A stretch of 52,184 nucleotides of DNA from Bacteriovoracaceae bacterium. Its GTDB lineage: Bacteria > Bdellovibrionota > Bacteriovoracia > Bacteriovoracales > Bacteriovoracaceae. The notes beneath the pieces were generated by a model. It made no database searches. It saw only the letters and a program-made list of their open reading frames with translations, and was not told the origin of the DNA. Location of the stretch: assembly GCA_016784965.1 (NCBI GenBank), contig JADHTQ010000029.1, forward strand, positions 1-52,184. Direction: 5' to 3'. The translations under genes were made by a program, and so were the position numbers. This document shows, piece by piece, positions 2,771-34,151 of this stretch; the stretch's first letter is position 1, and each line of letters begins with the position of its first letter.

Positions 2771-4426
2771 ATGACGAAAAAAATTATGATAAGAGATCTA
2801 ACTCTTAGGGATGGACAGCAGTCCCAACTGGCCACAAGAATGACCCAAGCCCAAGTTGATAAAGTCCTACACCATTTTCCCGATGCCAATTTTCATGCAA
2901 TGGAAGTTTGGGGGGGAGCAGTACCTGACTCGGTTATGCGGTTTTTAAACGAAGATCCATGGGAAAGGTTGGCCAAAATAAAAAAAGTTATCGGCAATAC
3001 TTCCAAGTTGACAGCACTATCTCGCGGCAGAAATCTATTTGGCTATAATCCCTATCCCGAAAAGGTTATTGAAGGATTCAATAGAAACGCCATTGAGGTT
3101 GGCATTGATATTATGCGAATATTTGACGCACTAAACGATATACCAAATATGGCCCCCACTATTGATATTGTGGGTAAAAATGGAGGTCAGGTTGATGCTG
3201 CCGTTTGCTATACAGTTGATTCTCACTTTACCTTAAAAGAAAAGATCGCTGCATTCTTTCAGGGTAAAAAACTACCTCAAAACCTCTTTGATGATGAGTA
3301 CTTTATAGATAAAGCCGTGCAATTAGACCAATTTGGACCAGATATTATTACACTTAAAGATATGGCCGGTCTGCTCGATCCTGCACGAGCATCGACACTG
3401 CTTAAAAAAATTAAAGACAAAATTAAGGCCCCTCTTAATCTGCACACCCATTGCACTCCTGGTTTTGGACTTGCTTCAACGGTCATGGGTATGATTAGTG
3501 GCTGCGATATTATCGATACCTGCATTTTAAATTTTGCTGGTGGGCCTGCTGCACCACCATTTGAGCTGATCTACTTTTTTGCAAATAAGATGGGAATCGA
3601 TACGGGTGTTAACTTGGAAGCAGTCGGCGAAATAAATGTCAAGTTAGCAGAGATTAGAAAAGAGCTGGGGCAATTTGATAAAACAAAAATGTTACCCAGG
3701 CCCTTTAATATCGGCAAGGATACTCTTCCAAAAGAGATTGAAAAGCATTTTGATACAGGCGTCGAAATGATAGAGAAGAAAAACTTTAATGGGCTACTTG
3801 AGGAAGTCTACAAGATAGAAAAATACTTCAACTTACCAGCACCAAATGTCGCAGTCAGATTGGCACAAATTCCTGGGGGTATGTACACCAATATGGTCGA
3901 TCAGTTAGAGGTAATGAAGCTGTCTCATCTTTTTGACGAAGTTTTAGAGACTATTCCATCTGTTCGCCTCAAGGCCGGCTGTCCACCACTGGTAACACCT
4001 ACTAGCCAAATTGTTGGATCACAGGCAGTAAATGGGGTGGTAAATAGCGCCAAGGAAATTCCCTTTTATAAAAATGCCACATCTCAATATGTAAACCTGG
4101 TAAAGGGTAGTTATGGTAAAACGCCATTTCCTGTCGAGGAAGAATTTCGCTTTGAACTTGCTGGAACTCGTCAAGAAACAGCGTTTGACCCCTCGAGTTA
4201 TAAAAAGCCTGACAACCCAGTTCTTCCGGAGTATGGCAACGTTACTCTTGCAAAAGATGAAAAAGAGATGTTGCTGCTCGAGCTTTTTCCGGCGGTGGCA
4301 AAAAAATACTTAAGCGGAAAACGCAAAGATGCGTTCCTACAAGAGGTGGAAGAGCAAGACAGGATCGAACAGGGCAAGATTGAGTCCCTGTATCAAGCTG
4401 TCAGCGGAAACTATCTTGGCATATAG
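2771..4426 (+). CDS. Biotin-independent carboxyltransferase subunit (transcarboxylase 5S / PycB / OadA type)
   Basis: A 551-residue member of the pyruvate/oxaloacetate carboxyltransferase family, which moves CO2 between carboxybiotin and pyruvate. ATG 2771 is preferred over GTG 2762 because AGGTGG sits just upstream. Visible motifs are RDLTLRDGQQSQLATRM at the N-terminus, DALND, TLKDMAGLLDP (the lysine expected to be carbamylated) and LHTHC (metal-binding HxH), all typical of the TIM-barrel domain. The C-terminal region continues the family's second domain but there is no AMKM biotin-attachment site, so the protein must work with a separate carrier. The biotin carrier encoded at 37414-37875 is a candidate partner. 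Alternatives are the B subunit of two-subunit pyruvate carboxylase, the alpha subunit of oxaloacetate decarboxylase lacking its biotin domain, or a transcarboxylase 5S subunit. Confidence 0.85.
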   Translation: MTKKIMIRDLTLRDGQQSQLATRMTQAQVDKVLHHFPDANFHAMEVWGGAVPDSVMRFLNEDPWERLAKIKKVIGNTSKLTALSRGRNLFGYNPYPEKVIEGFNRNAIEVGIDIMRIFDALNDIPNMAPTIDIVGKNGGQVDAAVCYTVDSHFTLKEKIAAFFQGKKLPQNLFDDEYFIDKAVQLDQFGPDIITLKDMAGLLDPARASTLLKKIKDKIKAPLNLHTHCTPGFGLASTVMGMISGCDIIDTCILNFAGGPAAPPFELIYFFANKMGIDTGVNLEAVGEINVKLAEIRKELGQFDKTKMLPRPFNIGKDTLPKEIEKHFDTGVEMIEKKNFNGLLEEVYKIEKYFNLPAPNVAVRLAQIPGGMYTNMVDQLEVMKLSHLFDEVLETIPSVRLKAGCPPLVTPTSQIVGSQAVNGVVNSAKEIPFYKNATSQYVNLVKGSYGKTPFPVEEEFRFELAGTRQETAFDPSSYKKPDNPVLPEYGNVTLAKDEKEMLLLELFPAVAKKYLSGKRKDAFLQEVEEQDRIEQGKIESLYQAVSGNYLGI

Positions 4427-26369: not shown

Positions 26370-27065
26370 TTACCTTGGCTTTACAGAAGAAGTATCGGAT
26401 AAATCGTCTCCACTGGCAGCAACATCGGACGGAGCCTTTACAGGAGCGCGAGAAGTTTTCCTTGCTCCATCAAACTGCCGTGGTGAATTATTAGTGCCCA
26501 CGGCTGCATAATTGGAATGATTCAAATTGGTTACAACCGCCACTGCAAATCTCTGACTCAAGCCGTCAAATATTTTCTTAAGACACTTGGTTATTATACT
26601 AGATATACATTCCCCTGTCTCAGGAATTTTTAAACATTTTTTCGTAAGCTTTTCTTTTACTCTAATCTCATGTGGAGGCATTTCGTATAGAGCAGTATCG
26701 GAATCAACATATCCTCCTGAAACATTGAACACATACTTCCCGTCATTAAGTTTGGAGCATCCCATATAAATCCCAAGTATCATATCATAATCACTTGTTT
26801 TACCAATACTGTCATATGATGTTCCAGTATTGTATGACTTCGCTTTTCCTCTTGGTATACCTGCATTAATATATTTCGCTATCAGATTCATCACCATTTG
26901 CCCTACTGAAGAATCTGTAGCAATATTACAATCATGAAGTTTTGGTTTACATTCCCAATTGTAGATACCAACACTGGTCTTTGGCCATATCTTTTTGGGC
27001 CTTTTTGAATAAAGGCCATCGGAAATAAATAGTGCATATAAAATAAAACAAATTCTTGTTATCAT
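26370..27065 (-). CDS. Exported protein of unknown function
   Basis: A 231-residue protein with a short signal sequence (ITRICFILYALFISDGLYS). The mature part has several cysteines (WECKPKLHDC, MGCSKLN, KKCLKIPETGEC, TKCLKK) that could form disulfides, and a Ser/Asp/Pro-rich disordered tail after about residue 190. The region with SDYDMILGIYMGC and YVFNVSGGYVDSDTA suggests a beta-rich core. No family recognised. It is isolated, between the guanine operon and the Fic region, on the opposite strand. Confidence 0.6.
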   Translation of the reverse strand: MITRICFILYALFISDGLYSKRPKKIWPKTSVGIYNWECKPKLHDCNIATDSSVGQMVMNLIAKYINAGIPRGKAKSYNTGTSYDSIGKTSDYDMILGIYMGCSKLNDGKYVFNVSGGYVDSDTALYEMPPHEIRVKEKLTKKCLKIPETGECISSIITKCLKKIFDGLSQRFAVAVVTNLNHSNYAAVGTNNSPRQFDGARKTSRAPVKAPSDVAASGDDLSDTSSVKPR

Positions 27066-27260
27066 ATGAATATCTGCCCCATAGTGTGGTTTAACTATTC
27101 TAACAACCCTATACTATTATAGTTACTCATAAAATGATAATGCTATATTAGTAGTTCTGCAATTCACAGGGTGAAATAAAGTTTTCAGTCGGATTGGTTT
27201 GTTGAGGTTTTACTGAAACTGGATTTTAAGTGTGAGTGTTACGACACTTGATAACAAATG

Positions 27261-27390
27261 TGCAGATTAGTGCCGGTTCATGTTTGTCTATGTAAAATCA
27301 TGTGACTAGGTGCAAATTAGTGCAAAATAAAACAAATTGGTGCAAATTAATGTAAAATTGTGCATTTCTGTGCAGATTGGTGTAATATAT
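27261..27390 (+). repeat. 10-bp phased TG repeat array upstream of the Fic gene
   Basis: Thirteen consecutive 10-base blocks; twelve start with TG and the exception (27331) is AACAAATTGG. Best-conserved blocks are TGCAGATTAG (27261), TGCAAATTAG (27311), TGCAAATTAA (27341) and TGCAGATTGG (27371), giving consensus TGYAAATTRG. The period of exactly 10 bp would place each TG on the same face of the DNA helix. The array runs up to five bases from the start codon and overlaps the likely promoter, so it may be a multi-site operator. Confidence 0.75.
27359..27388 (+). promoter_or_regulatory. Candidate promoter of the Fic gene
   Basis: TTGTGC at 27359-27364 and TAATAT at 27383-27388 are 18 bases apart. 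The -10 box ends six bases before the ATG at 27395, and no ribosome binding site is visible between, so the transcript may be leaderless. Both boxes lie inside the 10-bp repeat array. Confidence 0.45.
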
Positions 27391-27394
27391 AAAC

Positions 27395-28873
27395 ATGAAG
27401 ATCATAGGATATGAATATTTAAGGCAAAAGCTTACCAATGAAGGCCATAAAATTTCAAGGTTTAGGGTTGAGACTCATCTCATCGATAAAGGTAGAGACC
27501 TCATAGAATTAAAAGGAAACCGTGAAATTCGCTATTTAAGAAGCACTAGAAAAAGCCCTAAAAACGATTGGGAACACCTCATATTTGGTCTAACTCATGA
27601 GGGAGTACATATTCCTCTAATGATTCCATTTTTTAGGAGTAAAGGGGCTACTGCGACTAAAGATTTTATTCTATCTCACCAGGCCGGAAAATATCATCGC
27701 ATAATCTGGTTTTATTATGAGGAGCTGATAAAAGAAAGGTTATCAATTCCTGATACTCAAGTTGGTAGATATGCAGAGGTTTTAAACCAGTCTCTCTACT
27801 ATACAGGTAGTCCATCTAAAATTAAAAGATATAAAATTGTCGATAATAGGATTGGGCACAATATTTTAACACCTATTATTCGAAAGGGTGTGTTTTTTAA
27901 AGGTGCTGAGGATATAAGAGGTAGTGCAAAGCTTCTACTGGATCAGTATGCACCTGAATTAATTGAAAAGTCAGTCAACTTTCTCTATGTAAAAGAAACA
28001 AAAAAATCCAACGAAATAGAAAAGGAACATCCTGATAAAAAACGTGAAGCCAGATTCGTTGAACTACTTAAAAGAGCACACGAGGTAGATAAAATCAATG
28101 AGAAAGTTGTCATCGAGCTTCAAAACGCAATTGTCGATCCAAGGTATGCAGCAGCCTCCTATAGGGAGTTTCAAACCTATATTGGAGTAACAGATCTTTT
28201 TGGCAATGAAGCTATTCATTATATTTGCCCCAAAGCAGAAGATAATCGCGATCTAATGGCCAGCTATGAGCACTTATGTAAAGACATTATGGAGGATGAT
28301 ACAATTGACCCCATTATCGCTGCTTCTGTAATTCCATTTTTATTTGTCTATCTACATCCAGTTGAGGATGGAAACGGAAGGATTCATCGTTTTCTTATCC
28401 ATTATGTGCTGTCAAAAAAAGATGTCACCCCAAAAGGAATGATCTTTCCCGTTTCAGCTGTTATTGCGGCCAATATAGATAAATATGATAAGGTATTAGA
28501 AAATTTTTCCAACGAAATTGTACCAATTATTAACTATGAACTAGATGAATTAGGTCAAATGACTGTTTTAGACAGTGATACAAAACATTTGTATCTTGGG
28601 ATCGACCTTACAAAGGCCTTGGAGTTTATCTCTTGGACCATCAAAGAAACCCTAGTGAATGATTTCAAAAAAGAACTAGAATACATGAAGCGCTTTTTTA
28701 ATTCCAAAGACCAAATAAGAAAGGTCGTTGACATCCCTGACAGAAAGTTAAACATTTTAATAAATAGTATTATAAACAATCAAGGTAGGTTGTCTCAAAA
28801 AAAGAGGAAAACTCAATTTAGTGAACTTACTGATGATGAAATAAAAAAAATTGAAGCGATTGTAAGAAAGTAA
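27395..28873 (+). CDS. Fic-domain protein (AMPylase-like)
   Basis: A 492-residue protein with a central Fic domain. The active-site loop is HPVEDGNGRIHR (H321 to R332), matching HxFx(D/E)GNGRxxR except that the core Phe is Val. Fic enzymes transfer AMP or related groups from nucleotides to hydroxyl side chains of target proteins. The N-terminal 190 residues (RFRVETHLIDKGRDLIELKG onwards) form the extra domain seen in long stand-alone Fic proteins. The C-terminus (LNILINSIINNQGRLSQKKR then FSELTDDEI) looks like the winged-helix-type segment common in this group. No obvious S/TxxxEG/N inhibitory motif was found. There is no partner antitoxin gene next to it. The phased repeat array directly upstream suggests tight, possibly self-imposed, control. 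Confidence 0.88.
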   Translation: MKIIGYEYLRQKLTNEGHKISRFRVETHLIDKGRDLIELKGNREIRYLRSTRKSPKNDWEHLIFGLTHEGVHIPLMIPFFRSKGATATKDFILSHQAGKYHRIIWFYYEELIKERLSIPDTQVGRYAEVLNQSLYYTGSPSKIKRYKIVDNRIGHNILTPIIRKGVFFKGAEDIRGSAKLLLDQYAPELIEKSVNFLYVKETKKSNEIEKEHPDKKREARFVELLKRAHEVDKINEKVVIELQNAIVDPRYAAASYREFQTYIGVTDLFGNEAIHYICPKAEDNRDLMASYEHLCKDIMEDDTIDPIIAASVIPFLFVYLHPVEDGNGRIHRFLIHYVLSKKDVTPKGMIFPVSAVIAANIDKYDKVLENFSNEIVPIINYELDELGQMTVLDSDTKHLYLGIDLTKALEFISWTIKETLVNDFKKELEYMKRFFNSKDQIRKVVDIPDRKLNILINSIINNQGRLSQKKRKTQFSELTDDEIKKIEAIVRK

Positions 28874-30757: not shown

Positions 30758-32401
30758 ATGTTCCAGCGACTCAGATATGATTTTTTCCAGTTTATTTTAA
30801 ACCAGATCAAGGAGTATTGGCCTTACTATCTCATGGGTGTCATCTGCTTGTTTTTTACCCATTATATTCAAAGCTACCTACCCTATTATGCCAAAGAACT
30901 TGCTGATATGGCATCGGCGGGGATGGAAGGTATTTCATCTAGTAAATTTATCTTTATGGCACTTGGAATCATTGTCTTTCGGACCTCCTCGCGGTTGCTA
31001 TTTTTTTATCCCGCTAGAGTTCAGCAAAAAAACCTCCGAACTGAGCTTTTATCAAATCTTGAAAGTAGCTCGCCCAACCGGTATGGCCGTTTTTCTAATG
31101 GACAGCTATTTCATATACTCATAAATGATATTGACAATATACGGGCCTTTTTTGGATTTGCTTTTTTACAAGTTGGCAATATTTTGGTAGCAATTAGCGT
31201 TCTAATGCCCAGAATCATCGCTTTCAATCCATCTCTAGCAATATGCTTATTGCCAATCCCGATCACCTTTTTGGTATTTACTGCAGTTGTGTGGAGAAAC
31301 CGTTTTCACTATCGCAAAATTCAAGACCTCCAGGGTGAGGTTCAAAACTTCATTATTGAAAGTTATGATGGGAAGAGAACTATTAAAAATTATCATGCGG
31401 AAAGTTCTTTTATCTCACTATTTAGACAACACTCGTTAAAAGAGTTGGGTCACTTTTATCGCGCAGGACTTGGTATATCGATTTTAAAACCGGCAATCCC
31501 ATTTGCCATTGGATTATCGCTCTTATGGGGAGCATATGTAATTAGACAAAATGATCTAGGAGCATCATCTTTGATCTTTTTTTCAGGTTTTGTTTTTTTG
31601 TTTCTAGAACCCATAATGTATCTTGCCTGGATTGGTGTCATCTTTTCTGGAACCGTAGGTTCTTGGAATCGAATCAAAGAACTTGTTAGCTCGCTAGATC
31701 AAGAGTCTGAAAGGGAGCTAATTCTAAGGTCCCAAAATACAAACAATGATGTTGAAAATTTTATTGTCCCATTTTGGGAAAAAACCATAAACTTGGAGAT
31801 TCCGAGTAAGAGTTGGACAGCACTGGTGGGCAAGACAGGTTGCGGGAAAAGCCATATATTGACAGAGCTTGCCGATATCTTAACCCTAAAAGGTAGCAAA
31901 ATTGCTTACGTTGCCCAAACTCCCTACCTGTACAATGACACAATGTTCAACAATATCTTCTTAGGTCAAAAAGTCAGTGAGGAAAAAAAGCTGCAGGCAC
32001 TTGAGTTAATTAAGTTATTTGCCCTAAATTACCTAGAATCTAAAGAGCAAATTTTTAATATGCAGGTAGGCGAACATGGCAAAAAGCTCTCTGGGGGAGA
32101 GGCCAAAAGAGTCTGTTTGATTAGAAGCCTAATGGGTAGTAGTGATATTTTAATTTGGGATGACCCCTTTTCATCGATTGATGTGCTCCTTGAGAGCAAA
32201 ATTGTAAATAGTATTAAAGATCACCCACAAGTTGTAAATAAAACAGTAATATTATCTTCCCATCGCTTAACAACCGTTAAAAAAAGTAAACAAGTTATAT
32301 TTGTTGATAAATCAGAAGGCATAGTAGAAACAGGTTTGGTTTCTTCTATTTTAAATGACAAAAGTAAGGTGTATGAGTACTTCAAAGATCAATTGGTTTG
32401 A
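30758..32401 (+). CDS. ABC exporter half-transporter, degenerate Walker B subunit
   Basis: A 547-residue fused membrane/ATPase protein of type IV exporter organisation: about six transmembrane segments (20-300) and a nucleotide-binding domain (about 335-547). Walker A is GKTGCGKS, the Q-loop is AYVAQTPYLY, the signature is LSGGE (around 445) and the H-loop is SSHRLT. The Walker B reads ILIWDDP, so the catalytic Glu is Asp (D469). Its partner gene overlaps by 29 bases and has the complementary defect. Together they would form a heterodimer with one full and one degenerate ATP site, as in TM287/288- or BmrCD-type exporters. Substrate unknown. Confidence 0.87.
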   Translation: MFQRLRYDFFQFILNQIKEYWPYYLMGVICLFFTHYIQSYLPYYAKELADMASAGMEGISSSKFIFMALGIIVFRTSSRLLFFYPARVQQKNLRTELLSNLESSSPNRYGRFSNGQLFHILINDIDNIRAFFGFAFLQVGNILVAISVLMPRIIAFNPSLAICLLPIPITFLVFTAVVWRNRFHYRKIQDLQGEVQNFIIESYDGKRTIKNYHAESSFISLFRQHSLKELGHFYRAGLGISILKPAIPFAIGLSLLWGAYVIRQNDLGASSLIFFSGFVFLFLEPIMYLAWIGVIFSGTVGSWNRIKELVSSLDQESERELILRSQNTNNDVENFIVPFWEKTINLEIPSKSWTALVGKTGCGKSHILTELADILTLKGSKIAYVAQTPYLYNDTMFNNIFLGQKVSEEKKLQALELIKLFALNYLESKEQIFNMQVGEHGKKLSGGEAKRVCLIRSLMGSSDILIWDDPFSSIDVLLESKIVNSIKDHPQVVNKTVILSSHRLTTVKKSKQVIFVDKSEGIVETGLVSSILNDKSKVYEYFKDQLV

Positions 32402-34151
32402 GTTTTTCGTTTTTAAAACGGCAAACATTAAGCTGTCATTAATAGGCGTATGCTTTGCTCTGTCGGCCATTTTAGGTTTTTTTATACCGCATTTTATCCT
32501 AGATCTTTCTGATAGCTATGATGTGACCAGCAGATTTTCTCAGGCACTAATCAATCTCTTTTTGCTCTTTGTTGCAATTTACCTAAACCGAGCAATTTAT
32601 GAGTTGACCATCAACAGTTATGTATGTGGATTGGTCCAGAATGTTCGAGAGGTCTGTTATAGCAAATGGTTGCTCAACTACAACATCTTTAATTCTCGTG
32701 CATCAAAGAGAAAGGATTACCCTCAAGGGGAAGTCATTGCGCGAATTATGAGCGATACAGAATCTTTGATGGAGCTGATTCGCTCTGGCAGCTTCGCCAT
32801 AATACTCGATATCTTATTTGTTATTTCAGGCCTTATAAGCTTTATTTCCATTAACGTCATTGCTGGAAGTTTTCTAACTGGCATAGAGATTATTGCTACA
32901 ATTTTGCTCATTTGGGGTAGTAAATATATGCGCAAGATCTTCCACACCGTCCGCTACTGGCGGGGAATGGTTTCAAGAATTGTGGCCAATGTAATGGGAG
33001 GCATGAAAGAAACCTACTACTGTGACCATCAAAACTATGTTACAAAAAAGGGTGAGAAGGCCTTTGACACATTCATGAAAAAACAACTGCGGGCCAACTG
33101 GTGGGATGCTGCTTACTACTCAGTTGCAGAGTCGATGTACCCCATTTTTTTACTCTGTGTAATTTTTATTTTTCCCTATTCTAAAATCACTCAAGTGGCC
33201 ATTATTTTTGCCATTGTCGATCTGATTCAAAGAACAATTGCCCCAATCAAAGGAATTGCAAGTAAGATGGCCAATATCCAAAGAGCAATTTCTGGGATGC
33301 AACGCATCTCAGAGTTCGTGCTGGACATTGAAAGCGGATATTCATCAAATGGTGATAAGGTCAATCGCAACTCATCACATACCTTTACTCGCCTTGTTAT
33401 AGATATTCCCCACTTTGCTTACTCTACTCAAATTGATGATAAAAACAGACAAGCAAATTTTCACCTGCGCAATATAAAGTTTGAGGCAAATTTTGGTGAG
33501 CTCATTGGAGTCGTCGGGGTTTCTGGGTCAGGCAAATCTACCTTGCTAAATTGTATGACCGCAAACATTATCCCCCGCGATGCAAATTTTGTTATTAAAG
33601 GTTCGAAGGAAGATATTAGTCTTGAAGGAATGAGTGACTCCAAAACGGTTATCCAGTATCGCTCACACATAGGCCTAGTCTCCCAAGATTCCCACCTTTT
33701 TTCAGAATCTTTAATCTTTAATATCACCATGCAACGGGAGACTCCTGCTGATTTTACTGAGTTTTGGAGTCGAATCACTGAAAAAATCGAGTACTTTAAC
33801 ACCTGGAAAATTGCTCCTGGTGACATTATTGAGCCAAAGGCCCTATCTCTTGGTCAAAAGCAGCTCATTGCTGCCATTCGTGCTTGCTATATAAAAAGGC
33901 CAATTATCCTATTCGATGAAATATCCTCTGCCTTAGACTCAAAGTTGGAAATTGCACTAAAGGCAGTTATAAACTTAATACAACAAAATGCACTGATAAT
34001 CATTGTGGGGCACCGCTTAGAGACCATTATTAGCGCCAACAAGATTTGGGTGATGGATCAGGGACAATTTGTTAGCTCAGGAACTCATCAACAATTACTA
34101 GAATCATCTAAAGAATACAGAAACTTTTTAAATGAACTCTCACTTACCTAA
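32373..34151 (+). CDS. ABC exporter half-transporter, catalytic Walker B subunit
   Basis: A 592-residue fused exporter subunit. ATG 32373 has AAGG just upstream; ATG 32355 further inside the previous gene is an alternative. Membrane domain about 20-330, ATPase domain about 335-592 with Walker A GVSGSGKST, Q-loop LVSQDSHLF, signature LSLGQ (491-495; the central Gly is Leu), Walker B ILFDEISSALD with catalytic E516, and H-loop VGHRLET. The altered signature would face the partner's degenerate Walker site, while its good Walker site faces the partner's LSGGE. Overlap with the first gene indicates coupled translation. Confidence 0.88.
   Translation: MSTSKINWFEFFVFKTANIKLSLIGVCFALSAILGFFIPHFILDLSDSYDVTSRFSQALINLFLLFVAIYLNRAIYELTINSYVCGLVQNVREVCYSKWLLNYNIFNSRASKRKDYPQGEVIARIMSDTESLMELIRSGSFAIILDILFVISGLISFISINVIAGSFLTGIEIIATILLIWGSKYMRKIFHTVRYWRGMVSRIVANVMGGMKETYYCDHQNYVTKKGEKAFDTFMKKQLRANWWDAAYYSVAESMYPIFLLCVIFIFPYSKITQVAIIFAIVDLIQRTIAPIKGIASKMANIQRAISGMQRISEFVLDIESGYSSNGDKVNRNSSHTFTRLVIDIPHFAYSTQIDDKNRQANFHLRNIKFEANFGELIGVVGVSGSGKSTLLNCMTANIIPRDANFVIKGSKEDISLEGMSDSKTVIQYRSHIGLVSQDSHLFSESLIFNITMQRETPADFTEFWSRITEKIEYFNTWKIAPGDIIEPKALSLGQKQLIAAIRACYIKRPIILFDEISSALDSKLEIALKAVINLIQQNALIIIVGHRLETIISANKIWVMDQGQFVSSGTHQQLLESSKEYRNFLNELSLT

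Follow-up and report, generated by a model that had tools for sequence, protein, structure and literature searches.

What does a run of ten-base repeats do directly ahead of a Fic gene, and which protein would recognize it? The question is raised by an array of thirteen 10-bp units at 27261-27390 on the forward strand of the window, which is the whole 52,184-nucleotide stretch of DNA analyzed here. The array was considered as a proposed operator, and it was compared with the upstream regions of related Fic genes and with known regulatory systems.

The ten-base array of the window

When the window sequence was read in tens, TG opened 12 of the 13 blocks, and the sole exception was the block at 27331 (AACAAATTGG), as the initial annotation had described. 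The self-identity of the array was 0.53, 0.52, 0.57, and 0.49 at lags of 10, 20, 30, and 40, and all remaining lags gave approximately 0.17-0.32. In 20,000 first-order Markov shuffles, neither the TG phasing nor the lag-10 identity of the array was ever reached, and the peaks at multiples of 10 confirmed the suspected periodicity. The measured consensus, TGYAAATTNR, carries 6.5 bits per block with the TG positions strongest, and it is near the TGYAAATTRG given previously. The best copies are located at 27260, 27310, 27320, 27340, 27350, and 27370 and the weak copies at 27280 and 27300, all on the forward strand.

The array was the strongest 10-bp-phased stretch of the window, and no other stretch came up to it. 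Across the 4,585,181-base genome, five phased TGY blocks were matched at a single site, the array, and the reversed control pattern had no match. Other dense arrays were found neither elsewhere in this genome nor in 299 other genomes, and none of 13 viral contigs carrying two adjacent units contained a long array. Elsewhere in the window, a 13-bp tandem repeat (CCAAACCGCTCAC, 4.5 copies) lies at 282-339, and a tandem pair of overlapping ABC transporter genes lies at 30758-34151.

Four bases, rather than the five first counted, separate the end of the array from the ATG at 27395. The promoter scan detected no sigma-70 promoter inside the array, so the overlap with a presumed promoter that had been claimed for this locus was not recovered. 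The only consensus-like site was a weak TTAACT-18-TATTAT at 27091-27120 (+), upstream of the array in the remaining intergenic stretch (27066-27260) toward the divergent gene at 26370-27065 (-). The last array unit plus the four bases to the ATG (27381-27394, +) was also read directly from the sequence. It includes TAATAT at 27383-27388 (+), a weak and possible -10 element missed by the scan, which would set the mRNA start near the ATG if it were used. No Shine-Dalgarno-like sequence was seen ahead of the Fic ATG in these 14 bases.

The Fic protein and the spread of its family

The gene at 27395-28873 (+) encodes a Fic-domain protein of 492 aa, which was assigned to the PADLOC candidate family PDC-S24. 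The Fic domain was detected with Pfam PF02661 (E 2.7e-9), and residues 3-491 aligned to positions 6-486 of 497 in the PADLOC profile PDLC04966 (E 4.9e-133). All 85 aligned proteins, the window protein and 84 relatives, matched the PDC-S24 profile, with SoFic as a distant second. The Fic motif HPVEDGNGRIHR at residues 321-332 fits the active-site motif of class II Fic/Fido enzymes, HPFx[D/E]GN[G/K]R, with V replacing F, and the family consensus is HPFEDGNGRIHR. An inhibitory-helix-like SNEIE was located at residues 205-209, followed by K where the N-terminal inhibitory helix of class II enzymes, (S/T)xxxE(G/N), has G or N. PDC-S24 is a computed phage-defense candidate, and the window enzyme is suspected to be anti-phage. 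A literature search, in which subscription journals were thinly covered, returned no paper naming PDC-S24 and nothing on its regulation.

The AlphaFold2 model of the protein had a mean pLDDT of 94.4, and its Fic core best matched SoFic and Coxiella Fic2 (3eqx, 8cil) in a structural search. The N-terminal 125 residues reached a pLDDT of 94 when modeled alone. Against the PDB, Foldseek gave no clear match for this domain, and VIA-align gave weak matches with Z of 4.8 and 3.5, the latter to AbiEi. The structural alignment of the C-terminal helices extends to the HTH end of SoFic/CbFic2, and the model lacks a wing. When motif similarity and protein similarity were correlated domain by domain, no domain stood out as a DNA-binding candidate.

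Approximately 120 orthologues with roughly 26-46% identity were gathered, and homology served to predict their start codons. Rather than a random sample, the discovery set held the best 80 loci out of at least 579. No close orthologue was found among 58 relatives, and 369 genomes from the phylum of the window contributed three others, which share 30-31% identity. Relatives were located on 302 plasmids, and the genomes that carry them span more than twenty phyla; identity between members from different phyla reaches 85%. Together, the rarity in its own phylum, the plasmids, and the cross-phylum identity form the pattern of a mobile gene. Phage records yielded no homologue. Two viral contigs (L112 and L113) carry the same Fic family with a long array, upstream of position 3968, of repeats spaced by 20 and 30 bp. 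On a Deinococcus psychrotolerans plasmid (L026, 1-6299), the Fic gene is flanked by hsdS and hsdR, which belong to a type I restriction system, with a MazEF-like pair adjoining.

No neighboring gene recurred beside the orthologues, and among 102 adjacent genes no Pfam family was represented more than twice. Defense genes were only scattered among the neighbors. Because no neighbor recurs, a specialized partner regulator encoded beside the Fic gene is unlikely.

Direct repeats over the orthologous promoters

In 92 orthologue upstream regions, identical 6-mer pairs at distances of 20, 30, and 50 bp numbered 136, 162, and 168, compared to approximately 14, 15, and 11 in shuffles, and pairs at distance 10 showed no excess. 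Periodicity was individually significant (p<0.05) in 51 of 93 Fic upstream regions and non-significant in the other 42, compared to 15 of 400 upstream regions of other genes at the same loci. An expectation-maximization search that tied three copies together gave the usual form, a same-strand triplet of RTAAYNRTTTTTC spaced by 30 and then 20 bp, and this order clearly beat 20-then-30 and the off-by-one spacings tried. Among 676 spacings (15 to 40 bp), 30/20 ranked first in the discovery set (26.5/42 against a mean of 17.4, sd 1.1). It ranked first again (22.4 against a mean of 17.0, sd 1.0) in 28 independent loci obtained with a different query and a different genome draw. The pattern was absent from nine SoFic-type upstream regions (rank 836 of 1,089), which form a small control.

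Three further loci carry short repeats of their own. In genome G000, three 11-bp direct repeats (GTGAAAGAATA-like) precede another Fic gene of that genome, a 345-aa SoFic-like one (L002, contig C81, ~1190-1230). Three 11-bp repeats ACGGCATAATA lie shortly ahead of the start codon of a 370-aa Fic gene, a second paralogue with tandem repeats (L003, contig C79, ~1140-1185). Four head-to-tail 10-bp units resembling TGCAAATTGG occur on the minus strand of a viral contig (L017, near 2230), where the neighboring listed ORFs include no Fic gene.

In the window and many orthologues alike, AAATT and TTTTT tracts follow a 10-bp phase. They would also fit intrinsically curved promoter DNA, in which the bend from phased A/T tracts would itself aid or hinder RNA polymerase and no specific protein would be needed. 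However, G and C coincidences at 20, 30, and 50 bp were as strong as those of A/T (z 4.9, 5.5, and 5.6), and this equal share disfavors curvature alone. In addition, the 30-20 order is specific, and the repeats are separated by whole multiples of 10.0, not of approximately 10.5. Such spacing suggests that a rigid protein grid, and not just helical phasing, is at work. We therefore regard curvature as very unlikely, and the earlier idea of intrinsically shaped DNA as the whole explanation lost ground.

The dense form was not shared. Lag-10 periodicity was found in none of the orthologues, and the window stands alone among approximately 120 cases in having every 10-bp slot filled. Its unit was a poor match to the family motif RTAAYNRTTTTTC in both orientations. 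This divergence would fit a possible joint change of operator and protein. Across phyla, Fic protein similarity tracked motif similarity (partial rho 0.34, compared to 0.18 at control spacings); the correlation is modest and partly reflects shared descent. The initial annotation had named a lack of conservation in relatives as part of what would refute it, and this test went in its favor for the architecture but not for the sequence. Its regulatory site of phased contacts was upheld, since orthologue promoters carry same-strand repeats at exact 10-bp multiples, and its uninterrupted 10-bp array gave way to the 30-20 triplet as the usual form. The same thinly covered subscription literature applies to our finding nothing published on phased direct repeats before Fic genes.

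The absence of dense orthologues would also be expected if a single operator unit had recently been multiplied in tandem in the window, neutrally and with only a few copies that matter, and the most similar copies do lie close together, within 27310-27350. Yet pairwise comparison gave approximately 5 to 6 of 10 identical positions at every lag from 10 to 70, so that copy identity is flat with distance. Moreover, drift at other positions has left the TG of 12 of the 13 copies intact, a pattern that points toward selection. Neutral expansion is accordingly an improbable account of the array.

In 43 aligned orthologue promoters, copy A abuts the -35 element, copy B contains the -10 element, and copy C lies in the leader, most often 24 bp ahead of the start codon. 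In 31 of 67 loci, a second triplet was found upstream of the first, at no fixed distance. The placement of the three copies over the promoter bears on a type III, ToxIN-like RNA antitoxin, in which the repeats would be transcribed and would neutralize the Fic toxin as RNA. Tandem repeats directly ahead of a toxin-like gene, and the weak promoter-like site upstream of the window array, would fit such a system. In the orthologues, however, the promoter coincides with two of the three copies, which would therefore stay untranscribed. ToxIN-like systems have transcribed, structured repeats and a terminator, whereas no terminator was found in a scan of the window array. The array RNA folded no more stably than shuffles (z -0.68), and it had no match in Rfam. 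We consider an RNA antitoxin extremely improbable.

The reach of the triplet was traced in 14 whole orthologue genomes. The search gave 17 matches in 11 genomes, one or two in each, and all 17 shared the Fic strand and lay 18-164 bp ahead of the Fic gene, with none elsewhere; the reversed control triplet had no match. As far as these 14 genomes show, the operator is private to its own gene, and its binder most likely travels with that gene.

A candidate self-repressing Fic enzyme

A private triplet and the lack of a recurring neighbor make the Fic protein itself the simplest binder. On these sequence comparisons, we consider it reasonably probable that the array is an operator by which a PDC-S24-family Fic represses its own promoter. 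The repeats were observed directly, as were their geometry and conservation, their position over the orthologue promoters, their confinement to the Fic promoter in the genomes searched, and the family of the gene; we infer Fic as the binder, repression as the effect, and the link to phage. Several Fic subunits would dock cooperatively onto the same-strand repeats, which set a fixed grid of 10 bp. The usual triplet would offer them contacts at 0, 30, and 50 bp, over the -35 side, the -10 element, and the transcript start, and bound Fic would keep RNA polymerase off the promoter. Repression would limit the amount of a potentially toxic, AMP-transferring Fic until the cell requires it, for which phage infection is a plausible occasion. 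In the window, the same grid filled at every slot may support a longer and more graded assembly, and polymerization of Fic along one DNA face is compatible with this arrangement. Several observations weigh against self-repression: the poor fit of the window unit to the family motif, its dense form without a counterpart among relatives, the 42 upstream regions that lack individual significance, the N-terminal domain without a clear structural match, the missing wing of the C-terminal helices, and the part played by shared descent in the motif-protein correlation.

The same repeats could instead be bound by a host protein, either a global or nucleoid-associated regulator or a dedicated repressor encoded at an unlinked site. 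In its favor, Fic is a presumed binder whose DNA-binding domain would be putative. The same geometry recurs, however, in hosts of more than twenty phyla without a conserved neighbor, and the triplet occurred solely at the Fic gene in the 14 whole genomes. We consider a host binder unlikely, and self-repression by Fic remains our preferred reading.

A Fic toxin that represses its own promoter has a precedent in CccR of Yersinia pseudotuberculosis, which has a C-terminal HTH and whose dimer binds a pair of inverted 10-bp boxes separated by a 26-bp spacer (PMC9755527). Like CccR, the window protein is a Fic enzyme with repeated boxes of approximately 10 bp near its own promoter, and its SNEIE segment is a possible counterpart of the N-terminal inhibitory motif of CccR. 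In contrast, it belongs to another Fic family with an extra N-terminal domain, and an inverted pair with a 26-bp spacer was absent. The repeats of the window and its orthologues are on the same strand, as a continuous 10-bp array or as 30-20 triplets. CccR-like inverted repeats were seen at other Fic genes. The repeats CTTACATAAG and CTTATGTAAG precede a 375-aa Fic gene (L004, contig C15 of G000, ~950-1010), and inverted repeats such as TATGTATAGAAAATGGGTTTTTCTATACATA lie upstream of SoFic-type genes at L164, L168, and L170, where they take the place of direct repeats.

SoFic is a known anti-phage system (SoFic/CbFic2 group: PMC10628234, PMC12249575). Although this group shares the Fic fold with the window model and gives its best structural matches, identity to the window Fic is approximately 17%, and SoFic-type upstream regions lack the 30-20 pattern. 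BldC, lambda Xis, and RdfS are small wHTH proteins that bind head-to-tail with approximately one protomer per 10 bp (PMC11963761). That spacing is compatible with the window only, whereas the usual contact spacings in the family are 20 and 30 bp, and the presumed binder here is a 492-residue Fic enzyme. RptR is a separate 9-kDa regulator of a phage-defense island that binds three 9-bp repeats with a palindromic core (PMC12255303). Both cases have short direct repeats at a known or candidate defense promoter, autoregulated in RptR and putatively so here, but the presumed binder here is the Fic enzyme rather than a separate small protein. The operator layout of same-strand repeats at 30 and then 20 bp was not found described in the literature searched.

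A more speculative extension, which we hold as a doubtful possibility, is that a putative head-to-tail Fic assembly on the promoter grid also keeps the enzyme inactive. Loss of the assembly, for example on phage infection, would then both open the promoter and free active enzyme, and the window would represent the fully filled form.

Through the proposed autorepression, a widespread and uncharacterized candidate defense gene gains a testable control mechanism. Its operator layout, direct repeats spaced by 30 and then 20 bp at exact multiples of 10.0, is kept across more than twenty phyla, and the repeat signature can serve to recognize genuine family members. If Fic does repress itself, regulation and toxicity would reside in one polypeptide, moving between phyla as a single gene.
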